From assembly GCA_947626695.1 (NCBI GenBank), contig CANQTE010000004.1, positions 1-50,118 on the forward strand: a stretch of 50,118 nt of DNA, read 5' to 3'. A model generated the notes under the pieces. The model ran no database searches. It worked only from the letters and a program-made list of their open reading frames with translations, and was not told where the DNA came from. Source of the stretch: an uncultured Bacilli bacterium. Lineage in GTDB: Bacteria > Bacillota_I > Bacilli_A > RF39 > UBA660. Shown here piece by piece: positions 21,190-34,499 of this stretch; the stretch's first letter is position 1; every line of letters begins with the position of its first letter. Position numbers and translations under genes: made by a program.

Positions 21190-22314
21190 TCATTCATAAT
21201 ATTTTTTCATTAATTTTTGAAATAATAATTTGTAATTTTCAGTTACATAGTAATTTTTATAGCCTTTTGACATTCCATACCAAGATCTATATGATTCTAA
21301 AATAAATTGTAATCCCTCCGGACTGCCATTATACTTTTTAAACATTTTTGTTAATCTTCTTCTTGCCTGATGGATGCTTTTCTTTCCTAATCTTATAATT
21401 ACTTTACCACTATCAGTTAAGTTAATCCTTTTTTTAAGAAAAATAAAGGTGGACGATAATTTAGTGACTGATACTTTCTTATTATTTATTGTTATATCAA
21501 GTATTTTTGCCATTTTATATAGACCTTCACGGCATTTTTTCACTTCTTTAAGATCCTTACATATAGCATAGCCATCATCCATATATCTACCATAGCCTTT
21601 TATCTTTAAAACTTCTTTGAAGTACCTATCTAATAAAGTAGGATAATAAATAGCACATATTTGCGATACTTGACTGCCTAACCCTAATCCTTTATCTCCA
21701 AAGCTTTTTATATCATTTTTGACCATTGATAATATATCTTTATCTTTTATGTCTTTTGATAATAGTTTTAATAATACATCATGATTTATATTATCAAAAA
21801 ATTTAGAAAAATCAAATTGAAATATATATCCATTATTCCCATATTTTTTGTAATGTCTTAATAAATGCGCTTTTAAACGATCCAAAGCAAAATCTGTTCC
21901 TTTACCTTTTAGACTTGCTCCATTATCAAATATTAATTTGGAGGATAATACTGGGACAAGATATTTATCACATAATGTTCTCTCTATACATCGCTCATCT
22001 ATATCGACAGCACGTATATGCCTTATTTTTCCACGCTCACAGATGTCAAACTCCAAAAATTTTAGAGGTTTGAATTCTCTTGATTGAAGTTTGTTGCGTA
22101 TTTCTAATGTTTTTAATGGCAATAAAGATTCTTGCTTTTGAATACTGCTTTTCCATCTAACACCATTCCTACACAAATAGAAAGCTTTATATAGATTAAT
22201 ATAAGTAAATATATCATCATAATTACCTATCTGTTGCTCTTTTTTCCTCTCTCTTTCTAACCTATGAACGTGTCGTCTTTGGAATCTTCTTTCGTGTCTT
22301 TCTTCACTTCTCAT
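21190..22314 (-). CDS. Reverse transcriptase of a diversity-generating retroelement
   Basis: A 374-aa group II-intron-like reverse transcriptase. A basic N-terminus is followed by palm motifs FQFDFSKFFDNINHD (about 151-165), GLGLGSQVSQICAIYYPTLL (about 204-223) and the catalytic YMDD (about 238-241). The SQ-containing motif 4 is typical of DGR enzymes, and no endonuclease or maturase domain is present. It copies the TR RNA into cDNA with errors at adenines; the cDNA then replaces the VR. The ATG follows AGGAGG. TR, avd and target gene lie just upstream in the canonical order. Confidence 0.96.
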   Translation of the reverse strand: MRSEERHERRFQRRHVHRLERERKKEQQIGNYDDIFTYINLYKAFYLCRNGVRWKSSIQKQESLLPLKTLEIRNKLQSREFKPLKFLEFDICERGKIRHIRAVDIDERCIERTLCDKYLVPVLSSKLIFDNGASLKGKGTDFALDRLKAHLLRHYKKYGNNGYIFQFDFSKFFDNINHDVLLKLLSKDIKDKDILSMVKNDIKSFGDKGLGLGSQVSQICAIYYPTLLDRYFKEVLKIKGYGRYMDDGYAICKDLKEVKKCREGLYKMAKILDITINNKKVSVTKLSSTFIFLKKRINLTDSGKVIIRLGKKSIHQARRRLTKMFKKYNGSPEGLQFILESYRSWYGMSKGYKNYYVTENYKLLFQKLMKKYYE

Positions 22315-22672
22315 AAATTCCTCCTGTATAAGGCAATAAAATTATTTACACATCTTTAATTATTGGTTTAAGTAGATGTACTATACCGATAACAGCCATG
22401 AAATTAATGATACCAATAAACATTAACCATGCAAGAAGCGTCCGACTGGGTATGCTAAATAATGTATTTAGTGCTAATAAGCACAGGGTTATAAATTCCT
22501 TTATATATTCTTATCTGGGCATTGATTTCACTAATATTTCAAGTTACTTTATACTAACCAATTAATCTATATAAATCGGGGGCGACGCCATTTGTATTGT
22601 TACTATTGTTATTGTTAGCCGAACCATCACTATTAACATTTATCCAATTATCAGAACTATTAGAGCTGGTTT
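22315..22672 (-). ncRNA. DGR template RNA: TR plus downstream spacer
   Basis: This 383-base gene-free interval between avd and the RT gene (22315-22697) contains the template repeat and about 260 bases of downstream spacer. In the studied Bordetella DGR the spacer beyond TR is needed for cDNA priming. The spacer here is somewhat richer in G+C than its flanks. No start-bearing frame is present. The ends are approximate. Confidence 0.7.
22577..22672 (-). repeat. DGR template repeat (TR)
   Basis: Aligned without gaps to 23256-23351. All 61 non-adenine positions (read on the minus strand) are identical. Of 35 template adenines, 18 differ in the VR. Read in the target's frame the TR has 11 AAY codons, which cannot mutate to a stop at the A positions. 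The similarity can be stretched to 22568 if adenine substitutions are allowed. The end nearest the RT gene carries the GC-rich GGCGTCGCCCCCG, shared with the VR. Confidence 0.97.
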
Positions 22673-22697
22673 ATACAACTTATAACCCGTTAAACTA

Positions 22698-23117
22698 TTA
22701 ATTTTCTTTTATCAAATTCTTATATTTTACTCTATCGGCTTTTAATAAGCCTTTTAATAACATTATTTCGGTATTTATCATGTCCGCAATGTTCTCTACT
22801 AATTTAATCGATATTCCTGCATCTTTAAACAGAAAATACATTATTTCAATTTGTGATAGCATTGCTTGCGATTCAGCAATTGCTAATTTGAATTCTTGAC
22901 TTCTTAACATTACATCGTTTTGATTTTCAACATATATTGAATTACCTTTTTTTACGTGATTTAATAACTCAATAGCCATATCAATTAATTTATTATAGAA
23001 AAAACGATATTTCTTTGATTTATTAATCGTGCATTTTATGATATTTATTTCAATATCTCTTGCATTTTTCAGGAATTCCATGTTGGATGTACTTCTATCA
23101 CACGCTTTTACTGACAT
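22698..23117 (-). CDS. avd: Accessory variability determinant (Avd), four-helix bundle protein
   Basis: 139 aa, basic and helical. The N-terminal pattern MSV...TSNMEFLKNARDIE followed by KYRFFYNKLIDMAIELLNHVKKGNSIY is that of the Avd/four-helix-bundle (S23-like) family. In Bordetella phage BPP-1 Avd forms a pentamer that binds the reverse transcriptase and RNA and is needed for homing. It lies between target gene and TR. GGAGG is 15 bases from the chosen ATG, and a tiny out-of-frame ATG frame lies between them, so translation may be coupled. Confidence 0.9.
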   Translation of the reverse strand: MSVKACDRSTSNMEFLKNARDIEINIIKCTINKSKKYRFFYNKLIDMAIELLNHVKKGNSIYVENQNDVMLRSQEFKLAIAESQAMLSQIEIMYFLFKDAGISIKLVENIADMINTEIMLLKGLLKADRVKYKNLIKEN

Positions 23118-23206
23118 ATTGCATCTTATTATCCTCCAAATTCATTTTATCAAAATTATGTATATTTTTCTATCGATTTATTTATTTTTTATCGAAAATT
23201 TAATTT

Positions 23207-23237
23207 TAATCTAACTAGGACAAGCCTAGTTAGATTA
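23207..23237. other. 13-bp hairpin/cruciform after the VR
   Basis: TAATCTAACTAGG (23207-23219) and CCTAGTTAGATTA (23225-23237) are perfect inverted copies around a 5-base loop. It begins five bases beyond the target gene stop codon. There is no T run on the coding strand, so it is a poor terminator. A DNA hairpin at this place is required for efficient homing in characterised DGRs. Confidence 0.75.
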
Positions 23238-23241
23238 TAGA

Positions 23242-24465
23242 TCATAGACAAAAAGCGGGGGCGACGCCAAGTGTATAGCTACTATAGTCATCGCTAGCCG
23301 AACCATCACTATAAACACGTATCCAACGATCAGAACTAAAAGAGCTGGGACTTCTTAACCAATAAAGATTTGCTGTTCCACTTGAAGTTCCATTATTATT
23401 GTTATATTTTATTCTTTTAGCATTTGAATTATAATATGGATATTGTTGTCCCTCTAATGCTTGACTACCTTTATAATAACTATAACTAGCACTTCCAAAC
23501 ATTTCAGGATAAGATGGGAAGAATACTTTATCTTCTGTATCAGTTCCTGCTGTATTATTTGTATGGTTTGCTAAATTCTTTTTAATAACTGTTTTTAATA
23601 AAGATTGAATTCCACTTGGTAGAGCACCTGCAAATGTGTTATTTAACCATGTTCTACGAGGATTTGCTGACCATTGTCCTGTACCACCATAGTTTTGTCC
23701 ATTTTCAGCCGTTCCTTTGTTAGCCAAGACTTCTCGGCATTGTAAAGTAACCGCCGCTTTTGTACGAGTTCCTATTTGTTCTTTTAAATCGTCATGATTT
23801 ATTGCAACAATTACCATTGTCATATCTTGCTCGACATGGGCTTCTCCACCACTTCCACCAGCCATAGCAGATAAATGCATAACTCTTGTATCTCCAACAT
23901 TCCAGTAATCAGCAATATCAAGAAGTCCTTGATAATGAGCATTTAATATTGTTGCTAATTGCTCATCAGTTGCCGTGGCAAAGTCAACAGCTGTTGGTGT
24001 CGCCGTTATACAATTTACTTCATTAACATTGTAAACTTCTTTATCACTATACGGGAATAATCCGAATGAATATTTTTTATCAGTTACTAAATTATCAATT
24101 ATTAAATAATCATTTTGATATTTATTTTTTTCCTTTACATCTTCGACTAAAGTTCCATCTTCTTCATTTAATGGTATTTCTTCATCATCTCTTTTTATTA
24201 CTTTAACACCACCTAAAGAACAATATATGCCACCTCGATGGTCTTTCGTATCGTCAGGAGAATCAAATTTTAAACCGATGGATGTTGGCTCGATTTTGAT
24301 TTGCAAATTTTTTATATTGCGTGGAGATATTCCTCCACCAGTTTGCATATTTTCTATTTCTGTATCAAAGTTTTTAGCTGGAATAGGTGTCTCATCACCT
24401 TTTTTTGCTTTTATAGCATTACTAACATCAGTTAGAAAGTTACTTAAATTATCAGTTCTTGCCAT
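23242..24465 (-). CDS. DGR-diversified tail tip / receptor-binding protein
   Basis: 407 aa, last tail gene. The N-terminus (NLSNFLTDVSNAIKAKKGD, PIPAKNFDTEI) matches the short motif at the start of many Gram-positive phage tail fibres. A fibronectin-like beta region (about 48-155) follows, then a DUF6273/C-type-lectin-fold domain (about 190-407) with RRTWLNNTF, FFPSYPEMFG, YWLRSPSSF and a final GVAPAF. The last 32 codons are the VR; residues at the 11 AAY-derived codons read F,R,R,Y,S,D,D,Y,S,Y,L. Variation here would change receptor choice. Its ATG overlaps the previous stop (TAATG). Confidence 0.93.
   Translation of the reverse strand: MARTDNLSNFLTDVSNAIKAKKGDETPIPAKNFDTEIENMQTGGGISPRNIKNLQIKIEPTSIGLKFDSPDDTKDHRGGIYCSLGGVKVIKRDDEEIPLNEEDGTLVEDVKEKNKYQNDYLIIDNLVTDKKYSFGLFPYSDKEVYNVNEVNCITATPTAVDFATATDEQLATILNAHYQGLLDIADYWNVGDTRVMHLSAMAGGSGGEAHVEQDMTMVIVAINHDDLKEQIGTRTKAAVTLQCREVLANKGTAENGQNYGGTGQWSANPRRTWLNNTFAGALPSGIQSLLKTVIKKNLANHTNNTAGTDTEDKVFFPSYPEMFGSASYSYYKGSQALEGQQYPYYNSNAKRIKYNNNNGTSSGTANLYWLRSPSSFSSDRWIRVYSDGSASDDYSSYTLGVAPAFCL
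23256..23351 (-). repeat. DGR variable repeat (VR)
   Basis: The 3' end of the tail gene, 96 bases, ending at the GC-rich initiation-of-homing sequence GGCGTCGCCCCCG (23268-23256 on the minus strand), which is unchanged between TR and VR. All 18 differences from TR replace adenines, by C, G or T, and all 11 AAY codons have changed at least once. Confidence 0.97.
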
Positions 24466-29903: not shown

Positions 29904-30130
29904 CTAATCCGGCAAAAACTCGCCGTCATGATCTGCCATATCTTCAAGTTCTTTATATGTTGTCTTACTTAACGTGAAATCATAATGATTTTTATAACAG
30001 GTATATAACTTATTAAATTTCCAATAAGTCATTCTCCCAATTTCTTTATCTGTATAACCTAATAAAACGTGACCTACAAAATAAATCCACGAGAAGTCGA
30101 TTTCGTCATCATATTCCTCGTGGATCACTC
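29904..30130 (-). CDS. Tail assembly chaperone, frameshifted C-terminal part
   Basis: This frame, about 75 residues (VIHEEYDDEIDFSW onward), lacks its own ribosome site; its only early start is a GTG inside the previous gene. It is in the -1 frame relative to the upstream chaperone and joins it through A_AAA_AAC. The product would be a 194-aa fusion, the gpG-gpGT plan in which the T part recruits tape measure and tube subunits. A frame matching the position and size of gp14-type proteins supports this. Confidence 0.85.
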
Positions 30131-30137
30131 GTTTTTT
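30085..30137 (-). promoter_or_regulatory. Programmed -1 frameshift signal
   Basis: Slippery AAAAAAC (30137-30131) in the phase A_AAA_AAC, a 5-base spacer, then ATCCACGAG (30125-30117) pairing perfectly with CTCGTGGAT (30093-30085) around a 23-base loop. The zero-frame stop TGA lies two codons after the slip site. Confidence 0.9.
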
Positions 30138-30487
30138 GAATTATCTCCAGAATCAGTAGATTTTGCCGATAAATTCATAATAATATTCGTTGTTTCTTCA
30201 AAACCTACCTCTGATATAATTCTTCCAACTTGTTTTTCATTAACTAATTCTTTGCGTTCTTCCATTGGCAAATCTTCGTTTTCTATATCGATTGCCTCAT
30301 TGATCATAAGCATAAGACCTTTTTTTAAATCTTTAATATTCATACTGTCTTTTTCTTTACTTTCAACTACATCGCCCCAAGCCGAAAGACTGCCATATTG
30401 ATCTTGTAAATCTTCCAACACATTTAAGTTAAAACAAATCGGATAAGTTCTCTTTGCTGTTTTAATATAACCAATTTTATCTTTCAT
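30125..30487 (-). CDS. Tail assembly chaperone, short form
   Basis: 120 aa, acidic and helical, placed between major tail protein and tape measure, as for the gp13/G-type chaperone. It begins at ATG 30487 after AAAGGGAC. Chaperones of this type coat the tape measure before the tube assembles. Ribosomes that slip at the penultimate codons make the long form. Confidence 0.85.
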   Translation of the reverse strand: MKDKIGYIKTAKRTYPICFNLNVLEDLQDQYGSLSAWGDVVESKEKDSMNIKDLKKGLMLMINEAIDIENEDLPMEERKELVNEKQVGRIISEVGFEETTNIIMNLSAKSTDSGDNSKNE

Positions 30488-30510
30488 TAAAATTTGTCCC
30501 TTTCTATGGC

Positions 30511-30543
30511 AAAAAACAGAAAATCAAATTTGACTTTCTGTTT
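30511..30543 (-). terminator. Terminator after the major tail transcript
   Basis: AAACAGAAA (30514-30522) pairs with TTTCTGTTT (30535-30543), with an inner TCAAATTTGA palindrome, and a T run on the minus strand. It probably limits read-through so that tube protein is made in excess. Confidence 0.8.
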
Positions 30544-30562
30544 CATTACCATTAATTTTTAA

Positions 30563-30944
30563 TTTTATTCTGCGGGACTTAATGTTAAACCGGTTAGATC
30601 TAACACCTTTGTTGTCTCGCCATTTTTTAATGTTATCTTTTGTGTATTTGAATGTAATTGAACTATTAGAACACCATCTTCATCTAATGTTCCACTGCCC
30701 TTTGTTTTTGCCTCTGATAATTCCCAATTAATGGTGTCGCCTTTTGTTGCTTCATCACATTTAATTGCTAAAAAATTACCTTTGGCATTTTTTGAAAATT
30801 TAGGGAAACTTTGAACATACTTTGATGTCCCAGTTACTTTATCTCCCTCAATTTGGGCATCTTGTAAATCAGTTACATTCATTCCTAATACTTCGCCCTC
30901 GGGTAGATTTATTGTTACCTTTTGTGAGGGCTCACTAGGGTGTA
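30563..30944. repeat. 382-bp direct repeat, tail copy
   Basis: Identical to 32991-33372 except at two positions (about 30590 and 30890). It starts just before the extension stop codon and ends inside the ACA CCC TAG context of the major tail gene. Confidence 0.97.
30565..30936 (-). CDS. +1 frame C-terminal extension of the major tail protein
   Basis: 123 sense codons in the +1 frame, open from the CCC-TAG at the end of the major tail gene. It starts SEPSQKVTINLPEGEVLG and then holds a beta-rich domain with LAIKCDEATKGDTINWEL. The first ATG (30882) has AGGA directly abutting it, so independent initiation is unlikely. The domain is probably displayed on the tube as a decoration; I cannot assign it to an Ig-like family with confidence. 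The sister copy follows the capsid gene. Confidence 0.85.
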   Translation of the reverse strand, partial: SEPSQKVTINLPEGEVLGMNVTDLQDAQIEGDKVTGTSKYVQSFPKFSKNAKGNFLAIKCDEATKGDTINWELSEAKTKGSGTLDEDGVLIVQLHSNTQKITLKNGETTKVLDLTGLTLSPAE

Positions 30945-31513
30945 TATGGTTTTAATAATCCATCGAGATATGTTTCTGCTTCTTGAACTGTATCGAATGT
31001 TTTATGTTTTTCCCAGTCTCCCTCTTTTAAACCATTAAAATCACTCTCTAGACGCATAACTTTTGCTGATACAGAAGATGTACTAAATTCAGGACTTGCT
31101 CCTTTTGTTTTATTATCACTAGTAATGCCTGTAAATTTAACTCTTGGGAAGAATTCAACTTTATATTTATGTACGTTATTATATAGTTTTGGAATAATAT
31201 GCCCGTATGCTAGTTCAGGAGCCATATCATCAATGTTTTGCGTAACTTCCCCATCTTCAGTAATACTATTTCCTAATATTTCTGAGACAAATTTATCTTC
31301 ATCATCTGCAATCGTAATATCTAGTGTACCATCAATGAATGAAGTATCTGATTCTGCTAAACCATCATTTGCATATAATTCAGCATTTGCGTAGTTTGGA
31401 GCAAATTTTTCATCTACTACTTTTTCAAATTCTGGTACTTTTTCTTTTACTTCTTTTAATTTATCACCATCATGAAAATTATATTTTGCTTTTCTAAAAC
31501 CTATCCTTGCCAT
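30935..31513 (-). CDS. Major tail protein, phi13 type
   Basis: 192 aa. The sequence pattern MARIGFRKAKYNFHDG, then LTEDD-like acidic segments and DMAPELAYGHIIPKLYNN, followed by VEFFPRVKF, is that of the phi13-family tube protein. It stacks as rings to form the tail tube. It ends PYTP with ACA CCC TAG TGA, the predicted +1 slip site, giving 192-aa and about 315-aa forms. AAAGGATG precedes the ATG. Confidence 0.9.
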   Translation of the reverse strand: MARIGFRKAKYNFHDGDKLKEVKEKVPEFEKVVDEKFAPNYANAELYANDGLAESDTSFIDGTLDITIADDEDKFVSEILGNSITEDGEVTQNIDDMAPELAYGHIIPKLYNNVHKYKVEFFPRVKFTGITSDNKTKGASPEFSTSSVSAKVMRLESDFNGLKEGDWEKHKTFDTVQEAETYLDGLLKPYTP

Positions 31514-31514
31514 T

Positions 31515-31859
31515 TTATATCATCCTTTCTTTTTCAAATGTACATGTTTTATAATAAAGCCCTGTGCTTTCATCAAACATCTCGGCACTATCACTATTCC
31601 ATGTCCATCCATTGGCTTTCATTAGTTTTTTTATTTCTTTTACTATTTTTAAAAAATTCTTATCGCTAAAAATATCAATGTCAACTGTTACTACACTTGC
31701 TAAAACATCATCGTTAGCTGACAATGCTGGCACTTCATAAATAATAGACCATACAATATAAGTGCTCTCATCCCCCGTATATTTAATTTGTGATACAGGG
31801 ATCTTTTGATCATCTATAATTAAAATATCGCCTAATATAGTTTGTAATTCACTATTCAT
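31515..31859 (-). CDS. Tail terminator / completion protein
   Basis: 114 aa at the place of the tail-terminator gene between the HK97 gp10-like protein and the tube protein. Mixed alpha/beta pattern with TWNSDSAEMFDESTGLYYKTC near the C-terminus, as in gpU/gp17-like proteins, which cap the tail tube and join it to the head. Assignment rests on position and size more than on motifs. Confidence 0.7.
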   Translation of the reverse strand: MNSELQTILGDILIIDDQKIPVSQIKYTGDESTYIVWSIIYEVPALSANDDVLASVVTVDIDIFSDKNFLKIVKEIKKLMKANGWTWNSDSAEMFDESTGLYYKTCTFEKERMI

Positions 31860-32287
31860 TATCCATCACCCTTTATATATTTATCTTGAACTTTAAGCAT
31901 CTCTGCTTCTATTTGTGATTTAATAAAAGACTTACGAAAAAAAGGCTTTTTCGCCTCTGTTGGTGTTCCATATTCACGAGCCATTGCTTTTAATGGTATG
32001 GGCTTGCCTTGTGGATATTTTTTTGTTGGTACTCCATCATATCCATAAAATCCAACTTTCGTATTAATTCCATCATCACTTGAAGTTTTATATACTTTTG
32101 TTATTTTTAATCCTTTTTCTAATGAATTAGTAGATTTAAAAACACTTCTCATATTAGATAAAACATTGCTATATACTTTTTTTGCACCAGCATTAGTCAT
32201 TTCTCCTAATATTGTATCTAAATTATCATCAAGATCAGAAAACTCTTTAATTAAATCGTTTGGCAATTCCATATCAAATCTTGCCAT
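31859..32287 (-). CDS. HK97 gp10-like head-tail joining protein
   Basis: 142 aa from ATG 32287 (GAGGCAAG precedes it). The pattern MTNAGAKKVYSNVLSNM, then GFYGYDGVPTKKYPQGKPI and PFFRKSF matches the gp10 family of minor capsid/tail-completion proteins. It sits between head closure and tail terminator, with overlaps on both sides. Confidence 0.85.
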   Translation of the reverse strand: MARFDMELPNDLIKEFSDLDDNLDTILGEMTNAGAKKVYSNVLSNMRSVFKSTNSLEKGLKITKVYKTSSDDGINTKVGFYGYDGVPTKKYPQGKPIPLKAMAREYGTPTEAKKPFFRKSFIKSQIEAEMLKVQDKYIKGDG

Positions 32288-32609
32288 CAACTTGCCTCTT
32301 TGTTAAATCAGTTACGGTTAATTCTAATATTTCAGATGAAATGGCATAAGCCCTTTTTATAGCATATCTTTTATTAGTATCAATATCTATTAATGTTTCT
32401 TGACTGCTATAATCAACTGCCATTATTTCGACCATCAAATCAGCATTATAACCTAATTTTTTAGAATGTTCTTCTTCTGCTCTAGTTACAGATTTAAAGT
32501 TTGCTGGAATAGGATTAGACTTAACTTCTTCTGTAATATCAAAGCCATCTTTATCTTTAGCCTTTTTATAAGAAATAAGTGATATTGCATGATTCCAATT
32601 ACTATTCAT
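32274..32609 (-). CDS. Head closure / head-tail adaptor protein
   Basis: 111 aa, beta-rich, position and size of SPP1 gp16-like head-closure proteins (HK97 gp9/gp7 slot). Motifs include IPANFKSVTRAEEEHSKKLG and DYSSQETLIDIDTNKRY. It overlaps both neighbours, as usual in this connector cluster. Confidence 0.8.
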   Translation of the reverse strand: MNSNWNHAISLISYKKAKDKDGFDITEEVKSNPIPANFKSVTRAEEEHSKKLGYNADLMVEIMAVDYSSQETLIDIDTNKRYAIKRAYAISSEILELTVTDLTKRQVDGKI

Positions 32610-32925
32610 TAGAACCTCCTGTATTATAATCTTTTAATAAAGACAGTTTATTCCTGATACTTTCATACATTTTTAGGTATTGATTGGTATCACTTCTATC
32701 ATTTCCTCGATGTGCTTTAACATAATTTGTAATGCAATTCACAACTAGATTATCGTAACTACCATCTTTGTTTTGATTAAATACATCTTTATGGACTCCA
32801 GTTTCAATGCAATCTAAAATACAAGCATTTATTAAAGAAGATATTTCTTCATCATAAATAGTTGCTGTAATATAACATCTTTTTTTTACTAATTCAAGTA
32901 ATTTTTTTCCCGTTTCGTTTTCCAT
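32602..32925 (-). CDS. Head-tail connector, gp6/gp15-like
   Basis: 107 aa, helical, with NACILDCIETGVHKDVF and NCITNYVKAHRGND, like the gp6-type adaptor that binds below the portal. It is the first gene of the connector cluster, after AAAGGGTG. Confidence 0.8.
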   Translation of the reverse strand: MENETGKKLLELVKKRCYITATIYDEEISSLINACILDCIETGVHKDVFNQNKDGSYDNLVVNCITNYVKAHRGNDRSDTNQYLKMYESIRNKLSLLKDYNTGGSNE

Positions 32926-32955
32926 ATAATATCACCCTTTCTAATATGTAAATTT

Positions 32956-32980
32956 AGGATTGATTTAAAAAATCAATCCT
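32956..32980 (-). terminator. Hairpin after the capsid transcript
   Basis: AGGATTGATTT (32956-32966) pairs perfectly with AAATCAATCCT (32970-32980) around three A. The tail on the minus strand is only moderately T-rich, so termination may be partial. Confidence 0.6.
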
Positions 32981-32990
32981 ATTTCTACAC

Positions 32991-33372
32991 TTTTATTCTG
33001 CGGGACTTAATGTTAAATCGGTTAGATCTAACACCTTTGTTGTCTCGCCATTTTTTAATGTTATCTTTTGTGTATTTGAATGTAATTGAACTATTAGAAC
33101 ACCATCTTCATCTAATGTTCCACTGCCCTTTGTTTTTGCCTCTGATAATTCCCAATTAATGGTGTCGCCTTTTGTTGCTTCATCACATTTAATTGCTAAA
33201 AAATTACCTTTGGCATTTTTTGAAAATTTAGGGAAACTTTGAACATACTTTGATGTCCCAGTTACTTTATCTCCCTCAATTTGGGCATCTTGTAAATCAG
33301 TTACATTCATTCCTAATATTTCGCCCTCGGGTAGATTTATTGTTACCTTTTGTGAGGGCTCACTAGGGTGTA
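32991..33372. repeat. 382-bp direct repeat, capsid copy
   Basis: Partner of 30563-30944, offset 2,428 bases, two mismatches. It spans the whole +1-frame extension plus the shared CCC TAG TGA context at the end of the capsid gene. Confidence 0.97.
32993..33364 (-). CDS. +1 frame C-terminal extension of the major capsid protein
   Basis: 123 codons open in the +1 frame from CCC-TAG of the capsid gene, encoding the same beta-rich domain as the tail copy. Two amino acids differ: one Ile/Val near the start and one Asp/Gly near the end. It lacks a proper ribosome site before its first ATG (33310). A 501-aa capsid-extension fusion is predicted alongside the 378-aa form. Confidence 0.85.
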   Translation of the reverse strand, partial: SEPSQKVTINLPEGEILGMNVTDLQDAQIEGDKVTGTSKYVQSFPKFSKNAKGNFLAIKCDEATKGDTINWELSEAKTKGSGTLDEDGVLIVQLHSNTQKITLKNGETTKVLDLTDLTLSPAE

Positions 33373-34499
33373 ACTTCCTTTTTAACTCTTACAAAGCCAT
33401 CTAATTTGATAGTATTACCACCAGCCATTACTGATGCTCTATAACAAGTGATGCCTTGTTTGAATTTATAGTCAGTTGATTTAGCAATTTCAGTATCACT
33501 AAATAATGTTACTTTATAATTCTTTAATGAACCATAAGCCATGCAATCGAAATTACCTTCTTCATCAGGTGCACTTACTGGATGGCATTGTGAACTAATA
33601 ATATAATGAATTTTATCAATTGTTTTATTGTGAATATCGATATCATGTAATTTTCTTCCATCAGTAGTTCTTAACATAGCGAATGCTTTTAAATCTTCTT
33701 TTGATAGGATTAATACTGCATCTTCTTCTACATCTTCTGTACCACCGTAAGAGAATACGATTTTATCTAATGTATCGTTATCAATTTTATCAATTTTAAC
33801 ATCGTTTTTACCAGTAATTTCTTTTGTATTTTTGAAAATACCCATAAATGACTTTGTACCAGTACCATTTAATAAGAATTCAATTAGTTTTTTCTTTAAT
33901 GCAATATTCATATTGTTTTCAACTTTTGCAACATAATCTTGTGCTGGTAGTTTTTCAGCTTCTTCTGTCATTTCAGCATAAGCCGTAACTTTTACTTTAT
34001 TTATATCAGCATAACCAAATTCAGGTTCAGCATCAACATAATTGCCTTCCTCATCTGTTTGACCACCGGTACCGTATGATTTAACGTAAGCTTCTTGATA
34101 TGATTCGCCACCATCTAATTTATCGATAGTAACTTCATCTATTAAAGTTGAAACTTCGTTAAACTTTTCATTGATTTCCTTTCCTTGATATTTTGGAGTT
34201 AATAATGAACTTGATGAAACAGTTATGCTTCTTTTTTCCTTTAAAGCGTTGGCTTTCTTTTCGATATCAGAAATTTCGGCTTTTCTTGCTTCTTCATCAT
34301 TAACTTTTCTTGCTTCAATAACATCATTATTGATTTTATCAGCTAATGCCTTTCTGTTTTCCATTTTATTAAGATCTTCTAATTTAGCTCTTAACCCTCT
34401 TGCTTCTTCTTCTAATGCTTCTGTATCAACCTCTGTATTTTCATCTTTTAAGGCTGTTACAATTTCTTCTAATCTTTTAATCATTTCTTCTTTTGTCAT
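33363..34499 (-). CDS. Major capsid protein, HK97 fold
   Basis: 378 aa. The N-terminal coiled-coil delta domain (about residues 1-100) is removed by the prohead protease; the HK97 shell domain follows, with SYQEAYVKSYG, AEMTEEAEKLPAQDYV, and ALKKKLIEFLLNGTG. The C-terminus reads GNTIKLDGFVRVKKEVTP. The final ACA CCC TAG TGA matches the major tail gene exactly and is the predicted +1 slip site. AGGGAGAG precedes the ATG. Confidence 0.95.
   Translation of the reverse strand: MTKEEMIKRLEEIVTALKDENTEVDTEALEEEARGLRAKLEDLNKMENRKALADKINNDVIEARKVNDEEARKAEISDIEKKANALKEKRSITVSSSSLLTPKYQGKEINEKFNEVSTLIDEVTIDKLDGGESYQEAYVKSYGTGGQTDEEGNYVDAEPEFGYADINKVKVTAYAEMTEEAEKLPAQDYVAKVENNMNIALKKKLIEFLLNGTGTKSFMGIFKNTKEITGKNDVKIDKIDNDTLDKIVFSYGGTEDVEEDAVLILSKEDLKAFAMLRTTDGRKLHDIDIHNKTIDKIHYIISSQCHPVSAPDEEGNFDCMAYGSLKNYKVTLFSDTEIAKSTDYKFKQGITCYRASVMAGGNTIKLDGFVRVKKEVTP

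Follow-up and report, generated by a model that had tools for sequence, protein, structure and literature searches.

A candidate portable +1 frameshift cassette on the capsid and major tail genes of a siphophage-type prophage

Programmed +1 frameshifting in virion genes is already known, both at a CCC codon followed by a stop at the end of tail genes and, in Listeria phage PSA, on a head gene and a tail gene. In the case of phage SPP1, the ribosome stalls at the rare CCC that precedes the stop, then re-pairs on CCU (PMC6316719), and the +1 shifty stop CCCUAA yields gp17.1 and gp17.1*, the form with an FN3 tail extension, in a ratio of 3:1 (PMC6316719, PMC8718954). In PSA, +1 frameshifting acts on the genes of the head protein Cps and the tail protein Tsh (PMC5009743), and the sites read in NC_003291 are ACA CCC TCC (cps) and ACA CCC TGA (tsh). 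The lactococcal 936 phage PhiC0139 makes an MTP-TpeX fusion at a CCC.UAG shifty stop, and the fusion was seen by Western blot (PMC4759559). Ig-like decoration domains of phages, as the work of Fraser et al. (2006, 2007) is cited in PMC5009743, are promiscuous, occurring on head or tail proteins through +1, −1 or in-frame decoding.

The window (the whole stretch of DNA analysed, 50,118 nucleotides) holds on its minus strand a siphophage-type prophage in which both the capsid gene and the major tail gene end in a site of this type. As in SPP1, a +1 slip from a rare CCC to CCU would take place at the stop of the tail-tube gene and would add a C-terminal beta-sandwich (a provisional assignment here, from a structural model). 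SPP1 has two documented frameshifts, both outside the capsid gene, whereas the window capsid carries the cassette of the tail gene; the window domain, moreover, resembles PHROG 31690, and a conserved 3' RNA stem follows the slip site. With PSA the locus shares a +1 site, ACA CCC, on both a head gene and a tail gene, but the PSA extensions are short and mutually different (about 24 aa on Tsh), while the window has a near-identical 124-aa domain on both. PhiC0139 likewise has CCC.UAG at the end of its major tail gene; its frameshift is described for the tail gene only and adds a different domain with a carbohydrate-binding part (PMC4759559). Like the Ig-like decoration domains, the window domain, provisionally a beta-sandwich, is found on head and tail and is decoded by +1, −1 or in frame; unlike them, the moving unit here appears to include the slip site and the RNA stem. 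The literature examined offered no case in which slip site, stem and domain are swapped together among unrelated head and tail genes, with near-identical copies in one phage.

The prophage was recognised by profile matches and by its gene order, which is canonical: large terminase, portal, protease, capsid, connectors, tail terminator, major tail protein, tail protein and tape measure. The major tail protein (30935..31513, minus strand; 192 aa in the 0 frame, ending Y-T-P-TAG) is assigned by PHROG 88 (E 5.7e-18) and by synteny, with the tail terminator upstream and the tail protein and tape measure downstream. The major capsid protein (33363..34499, minus strand; 378 aa in the 0 frame, ending V-T-P-TAG) matches Pfam PF05065 Phage_capsid (E 8.3e-26) and PHROG 10. 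The tail-gene slip site ACA CCC TAG, with CCC in the P site and UAG in the A site, lies at 30935..30943 (minus strand) and is of the same kind as those of SPP1, PSA and the lactococcal 936 phages; an exact motif search places its second copy, on the capsid gene, at 33363..33371 (minus strand). An earlier note on this DNA had stated that both genes end with the same ACA CCC TAG TGA, and they do: the 12-mer ACACCCTAGTGA closes both and occurs at exactly two places in the window, 30932-30943 and 33360-33371 on the minus strand (2 observed; shuffled expectation 0.00).

After the slip, the +1 frame reads CCT AGT GAG CCC... and is open for 124 codons in both copies, over 30939-30568 in the tail copy (stop to 30565) and 33367-32996 in the capsid copy. 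The tail extension (30565..30939, minus strand; 124 aa followed by TAA, predicted all-beta) matches PHROG 31690, a family annotated as of unknown function, whose profile covers residues 28-121 (E 1.1e-11). By alignment of the copies, the capsid extension (32993..33367, minus strand; 124 aa) is identical to it at 122/124 residues, the two differences being V/I and G/D. The same extension thus follows both genes, and the decoration module claimed for head and tail is present on each; 'identical' was too strong by those two residues, and the length of 123 aa given by the earlier note becomes 124 aa once the proline is counted. At the nucleotide level 380/382 positions agree, over a stretch that opens with the T preceding ACACCC and closes shortly after the extension stop; the alignment ends at those bounds, and the repeat starts at the slip site. 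The head-tail block has no nucleotide match among annotated phages, where the extension protein finds one weak match only (E 0.04). No match was obtained in a single-sequence search of viral_contigs or in an Rfam search over window positions 30500..33450, and comparison with PDB sequences gave no credible one.

Programmed +1 frameshifting at a shifty stop very likely produces both extensions, within a portable cassette of slip site, stem and domain. In the proposed mechanism, peptidyl-tRNA-Pro would sit on the rare CCC while UAG occupies the A site and an RNA stem follows closely, and a slip of one base would re-pair it from CCC to CCU. A minority of ribosomes would then read on for 124 codons, so that a fraction of the tail-tube and capsid subunits would gain an outward C-terminal beta-sandwich domain, and recombination would transplant the cassette to the 3' termini of virion genes that are unrelated to each other. 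In the window, CCC accounts for 18/331 proline codons. The only proline tRNA found is tRNA-Pro(UGG), among 25 tRNAs drawn from Rfam hits; this list is incomplete and does not prove the lack of tRNA-Pro(GGG). Reading the fused tail protein by a code in which CCCT stands for proline was discarded, as a second in-frame CCCT follows and blocks such translation.

The arrangement is retained in relatives. The degenerate pattern ACACCCTAGYNNNSCC, searched in 385 genomes of the order, has 19 sites, and the reversed pattern used as control has 0; the CCC-TAR phase is thus kept in related phages, where the earlier note had named its loss (as CCC-TAG) as part of what would refute the reading. At 15/19 of these sites the pattern lies at the end of a phage structural gene or of pieces of one split over two contigs, and the +1 extensions there run to 102-233 aa where complete. 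A profile search for the extension returned 61 genome loci and 13 viral loci, in which the domain stands in the +1 frame relative to the preceding gene in 49 and in the −1 frame in 14, the other 11 having it in frame or as a separate ORF. Among ORFs of at least 100 aa that end in CCC in the fetched loci, 63/65 are followed by 80 or more open codons in the +1 frame, compared with 37/146 for GAA-ended control ORFs, a result that supports the programmed +1 frameshift first postulated in the earlier note. Between related extension pairs, substitutions at codon positions 1:2:3 number 1636:926:4111, and this third-position bias indicates that the +1 frame is under coding (purifying) selection. The part conserved across relatives is ACA CCC TAG/TAA plus the 3' RNA stem, with TAA in place of TAG at 12 sites, and not the tandem TAG TGA; at real sites the 0 frame closes within 0-21 codons after the stop.

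Among the genome loci, the −1 cases mostly terminate in a stretch of lysines read from an A-run. Seven loci (L047, L050, L070, L083, L085, L086 and L087) reach the same domain family via −1 slippage at A-runs (lysine-lysine-lysine) rather than by +1 slippage at CCC, and such −1 cases are a natural swap of recoding direction. In L078 the slip site lacks one T (ACA CCC AGT), which puts the tail protein and the domain into a single frame; a minority stoichiometry is therefore not required universally. All of the genome_contigs matches (61/61) come from one 'Lapin'-labelled MAG set, covering Bacilli, Clostridia and Eubacteriaceae, and the few viral_contigs relatives mostly join the domain in frame or by −1. 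The genome that hosts the window prophage has two further prophage regions (G000:C3:29379-29774, loci L008/L024, and G000:C1:18345, locus L012) with ACA CCC TAG +1 extensions on unrelated capsid proteins. When three exact DNA patterns of slip site plus stem were searched in viral_contigs, two had no match and the third led to L128 and L129, in which a capsid-like gene ends in ACA CCC TAA with a GCCAC/GTGGC stem and is followed by a different, 45-aa extension. The latter resembles the short extension of Listeria PSA Cps.

On the 3' side of the tail-gene slip site, 6 nt after CCC, an RNA stem-loop GCCCUC...GGUA...UACC.GAGGGC is predicted at 30895..30931 (minus strand; MFE −12.2 kcal/mol, z −2.6), and the capsid copy has its counterpart at 33323..33359 (minus strand; z −3.5). 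At nearly every +1 site the 5' arm of a stem begins 6-7 nt beyond CCC, a feature that the earlier note does not mention. The window class is GCCCUC/GAGGGC, and elsewhere the arms are GCCCG/CGGGC, GCCCC/GGGGC, GCCACG/CGUGGC, GCCAC/GUGGC or the compact GCCC-GAAAA-GGGC. Stability was tested on 42 nt per site at 52 distinct sites, with synonymous, protein-preserving shuffles as the reference: the mean z is −2.66 at the slip site, and lies between −0.6 and +0.3 at 13 other extension positions and 5 upstream-gene positions. A clear stem is absent at two sites, L006/L010 and L054. Most −1 and in-frame homologues have no such stem at the corresponding place; a strong fold does lie close to the slip site of L037, a −1 homologue, and L078, L083 and L085 have weak structure nearby. 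Strong covariation within one stem class was not found, and one pair has a double change; the case for the stem is built on its localisation, on the protein-preserving control and on arms that pair with different partners across classes. Taken together, these features make the 3' stem a putative frameshift stimulator. The 52 distinct +1 sites, with their matched −1 and in-frame homologues, form a large natural data set on bacterial +1 stimulation.

The genes that precede the site belong to many BLAST clusters and match seven head families (PHROGs 10, 422, 267, 1328, 544, 212 and 909) and two tail families (PHROGs 88 and 3099/820). In 362 copy pairs on BLAST-unrelated genes, the starts of the DNA alignments peak at ACACCC, −7/−6 from the stop, suggesting that the transplanted unit includes the slip site. 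One such comparison, L031 with L033, has 97.6% identity over 370 nt behind different capsid proteins. The site may also be followed by something other than the window domain alone: by a cadherin/PKD-like domain, singly or in tandem with the window domain, or by a 45-aa piece. Slip site, stem and domain seem to move as one cassette among unrelated virion genes, and the recoding signal and its protein domain may spread together, as a plug-in for which the end of any virion gene suffices.

One site is present in 56 loci and two in 4. The two-site phages, all with a head and a tail site, are the window phage (99.5% nucleotide identity between copies), L071 (88%), L075 (83%) and L028, whose head and tail sites carry different domains. 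In the tree, the head and tail extensions of the window phage are sisters, with the L028 tail extension as the next branch (100/81, 98/85), a placement that favours copying from tail to head in the window phage. The tail cassette was probably copied onto the head gene recently. The L071 head and tail extensions are also sisters (95/86), and intragenomic copying has thus probably occurred at least twice. The tree label 'tail' of L054 is unsafe; its PHROG is a virion structural protein of the head and packaging category.

Structure prediction, which the earlier note had recommended for the domain, gave an all-beta AlphaFold2 model (pLDDT 86, pTM 0.73). Its likeness to Ig/FN3 domains is of intermediate strength (Z about 6), such domains being frequent among the structural matches of middle rank, the best of which reaches Z 6.5. 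A Foldseek search with the model found no PDB match at E<=0.001, and the Ig-like label is for this reason provisional; three BFVD entries match the model at E 0.001 or better. No Pfam family passes the cut-off on the extension, Big_9 reaching only E 0.13. As far as the model goes, the domain is all-beta and probably Ig-like.

Production of the extensions by frameshifting has to be set against other readings of the same DNA. One is that they are not expressed as fusions, being separate genes with internal starts or remnants of insertions at gene ends, and mechanical ORF calling does find an internal ATG ORF of 105 aa at 30565..30882. Its ATG, however, lies about 19 residues inside the conserved domain, at every complete site the +1 frame stays open as far as the CCC, and neither the long +1 runs behind 63/65 CCC-ended ORFs nor the third-position bias and the localised stem fit this reading, which is very improbable. 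Still less probable, to the point of being negligible, is readthrough of the stop in the 0 frame: UAG can be leaky, but TGA directly follows TAG in both window copies, the 0 frame closes within 0-21 codons, and 12 sites have TAA instead of TAG. The genome is a draft, and a duplication arising in sequencing or assembly would account for the 99.5% identity of the 382-nt copies; yet different, correct genes flank each copy, two nucleotides differ, and three other phages have two sites with lower identity or different domains, leaving an artefact of this kind a highly improbable source of the head-tail identity.

Given frameshifting, the question becomes what the domain would do. The same domain family is found on many unrelated head families and on tail tubes, making a shared outward-facing function the most economical reading, and the prevalence of single-site loci means that marking both head and tail is not required. 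Weak adhesion to the bacterial surface or to gut mucus glycans, close to the attachment suggested in the earlier note, has about an even chance of being that role, with a structural or neutral one as the alternative; Ig-like phage domains and epithelial adhesion provide a precedent (PMC13370021), as does the carbohydrate-binding domain in the 936 tail extension (PMC4759559). It is also conceivable, though unlikely, that the cassette is largely selfish or neutral, with out-of-frame landings tolerated at low dose and no adhesive function shared by head and tail. Its movement between unrelated genes, the viability of SPP1 without gp17.1* and the chance in-frame or out-of-frame landing by recombination proposed for phage Ig-like domains (PMC5009743) all speak for such a cassette; the strong purifying selection on the extension, the conserved stem and the −1 and in-frame solutions that retain the same domain speak against it. 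Somewhat favoured overall is a mobile recoding cassette, copied between tail and head within a phage, that would place the same adhesin on both halves of the particle at a low dose set by the ribosome. The locus points to a natural low-dose display system on the heads and tails of gut phages.

Two other features of the window may be recorded. The tail genes at 30125..30487 and 29904..30128 (minus strand) overlap by 4 nt and are placed as the G/GT tail chaperones are in lambda. A diversity-generating retroelement lies at 21190..23348 (minus strand): its reverse transcriptase (21190..22314) matches RVT_1, a template-like repeat is found at 22573-22669, and the variable repeat, at 23252-23348, lies at the 3' end of the ORF 23242..24465 (DUF6273). 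The differences between the two repeats, 16/16, fall at a template T on the plus strand, which is A on the coding strand.
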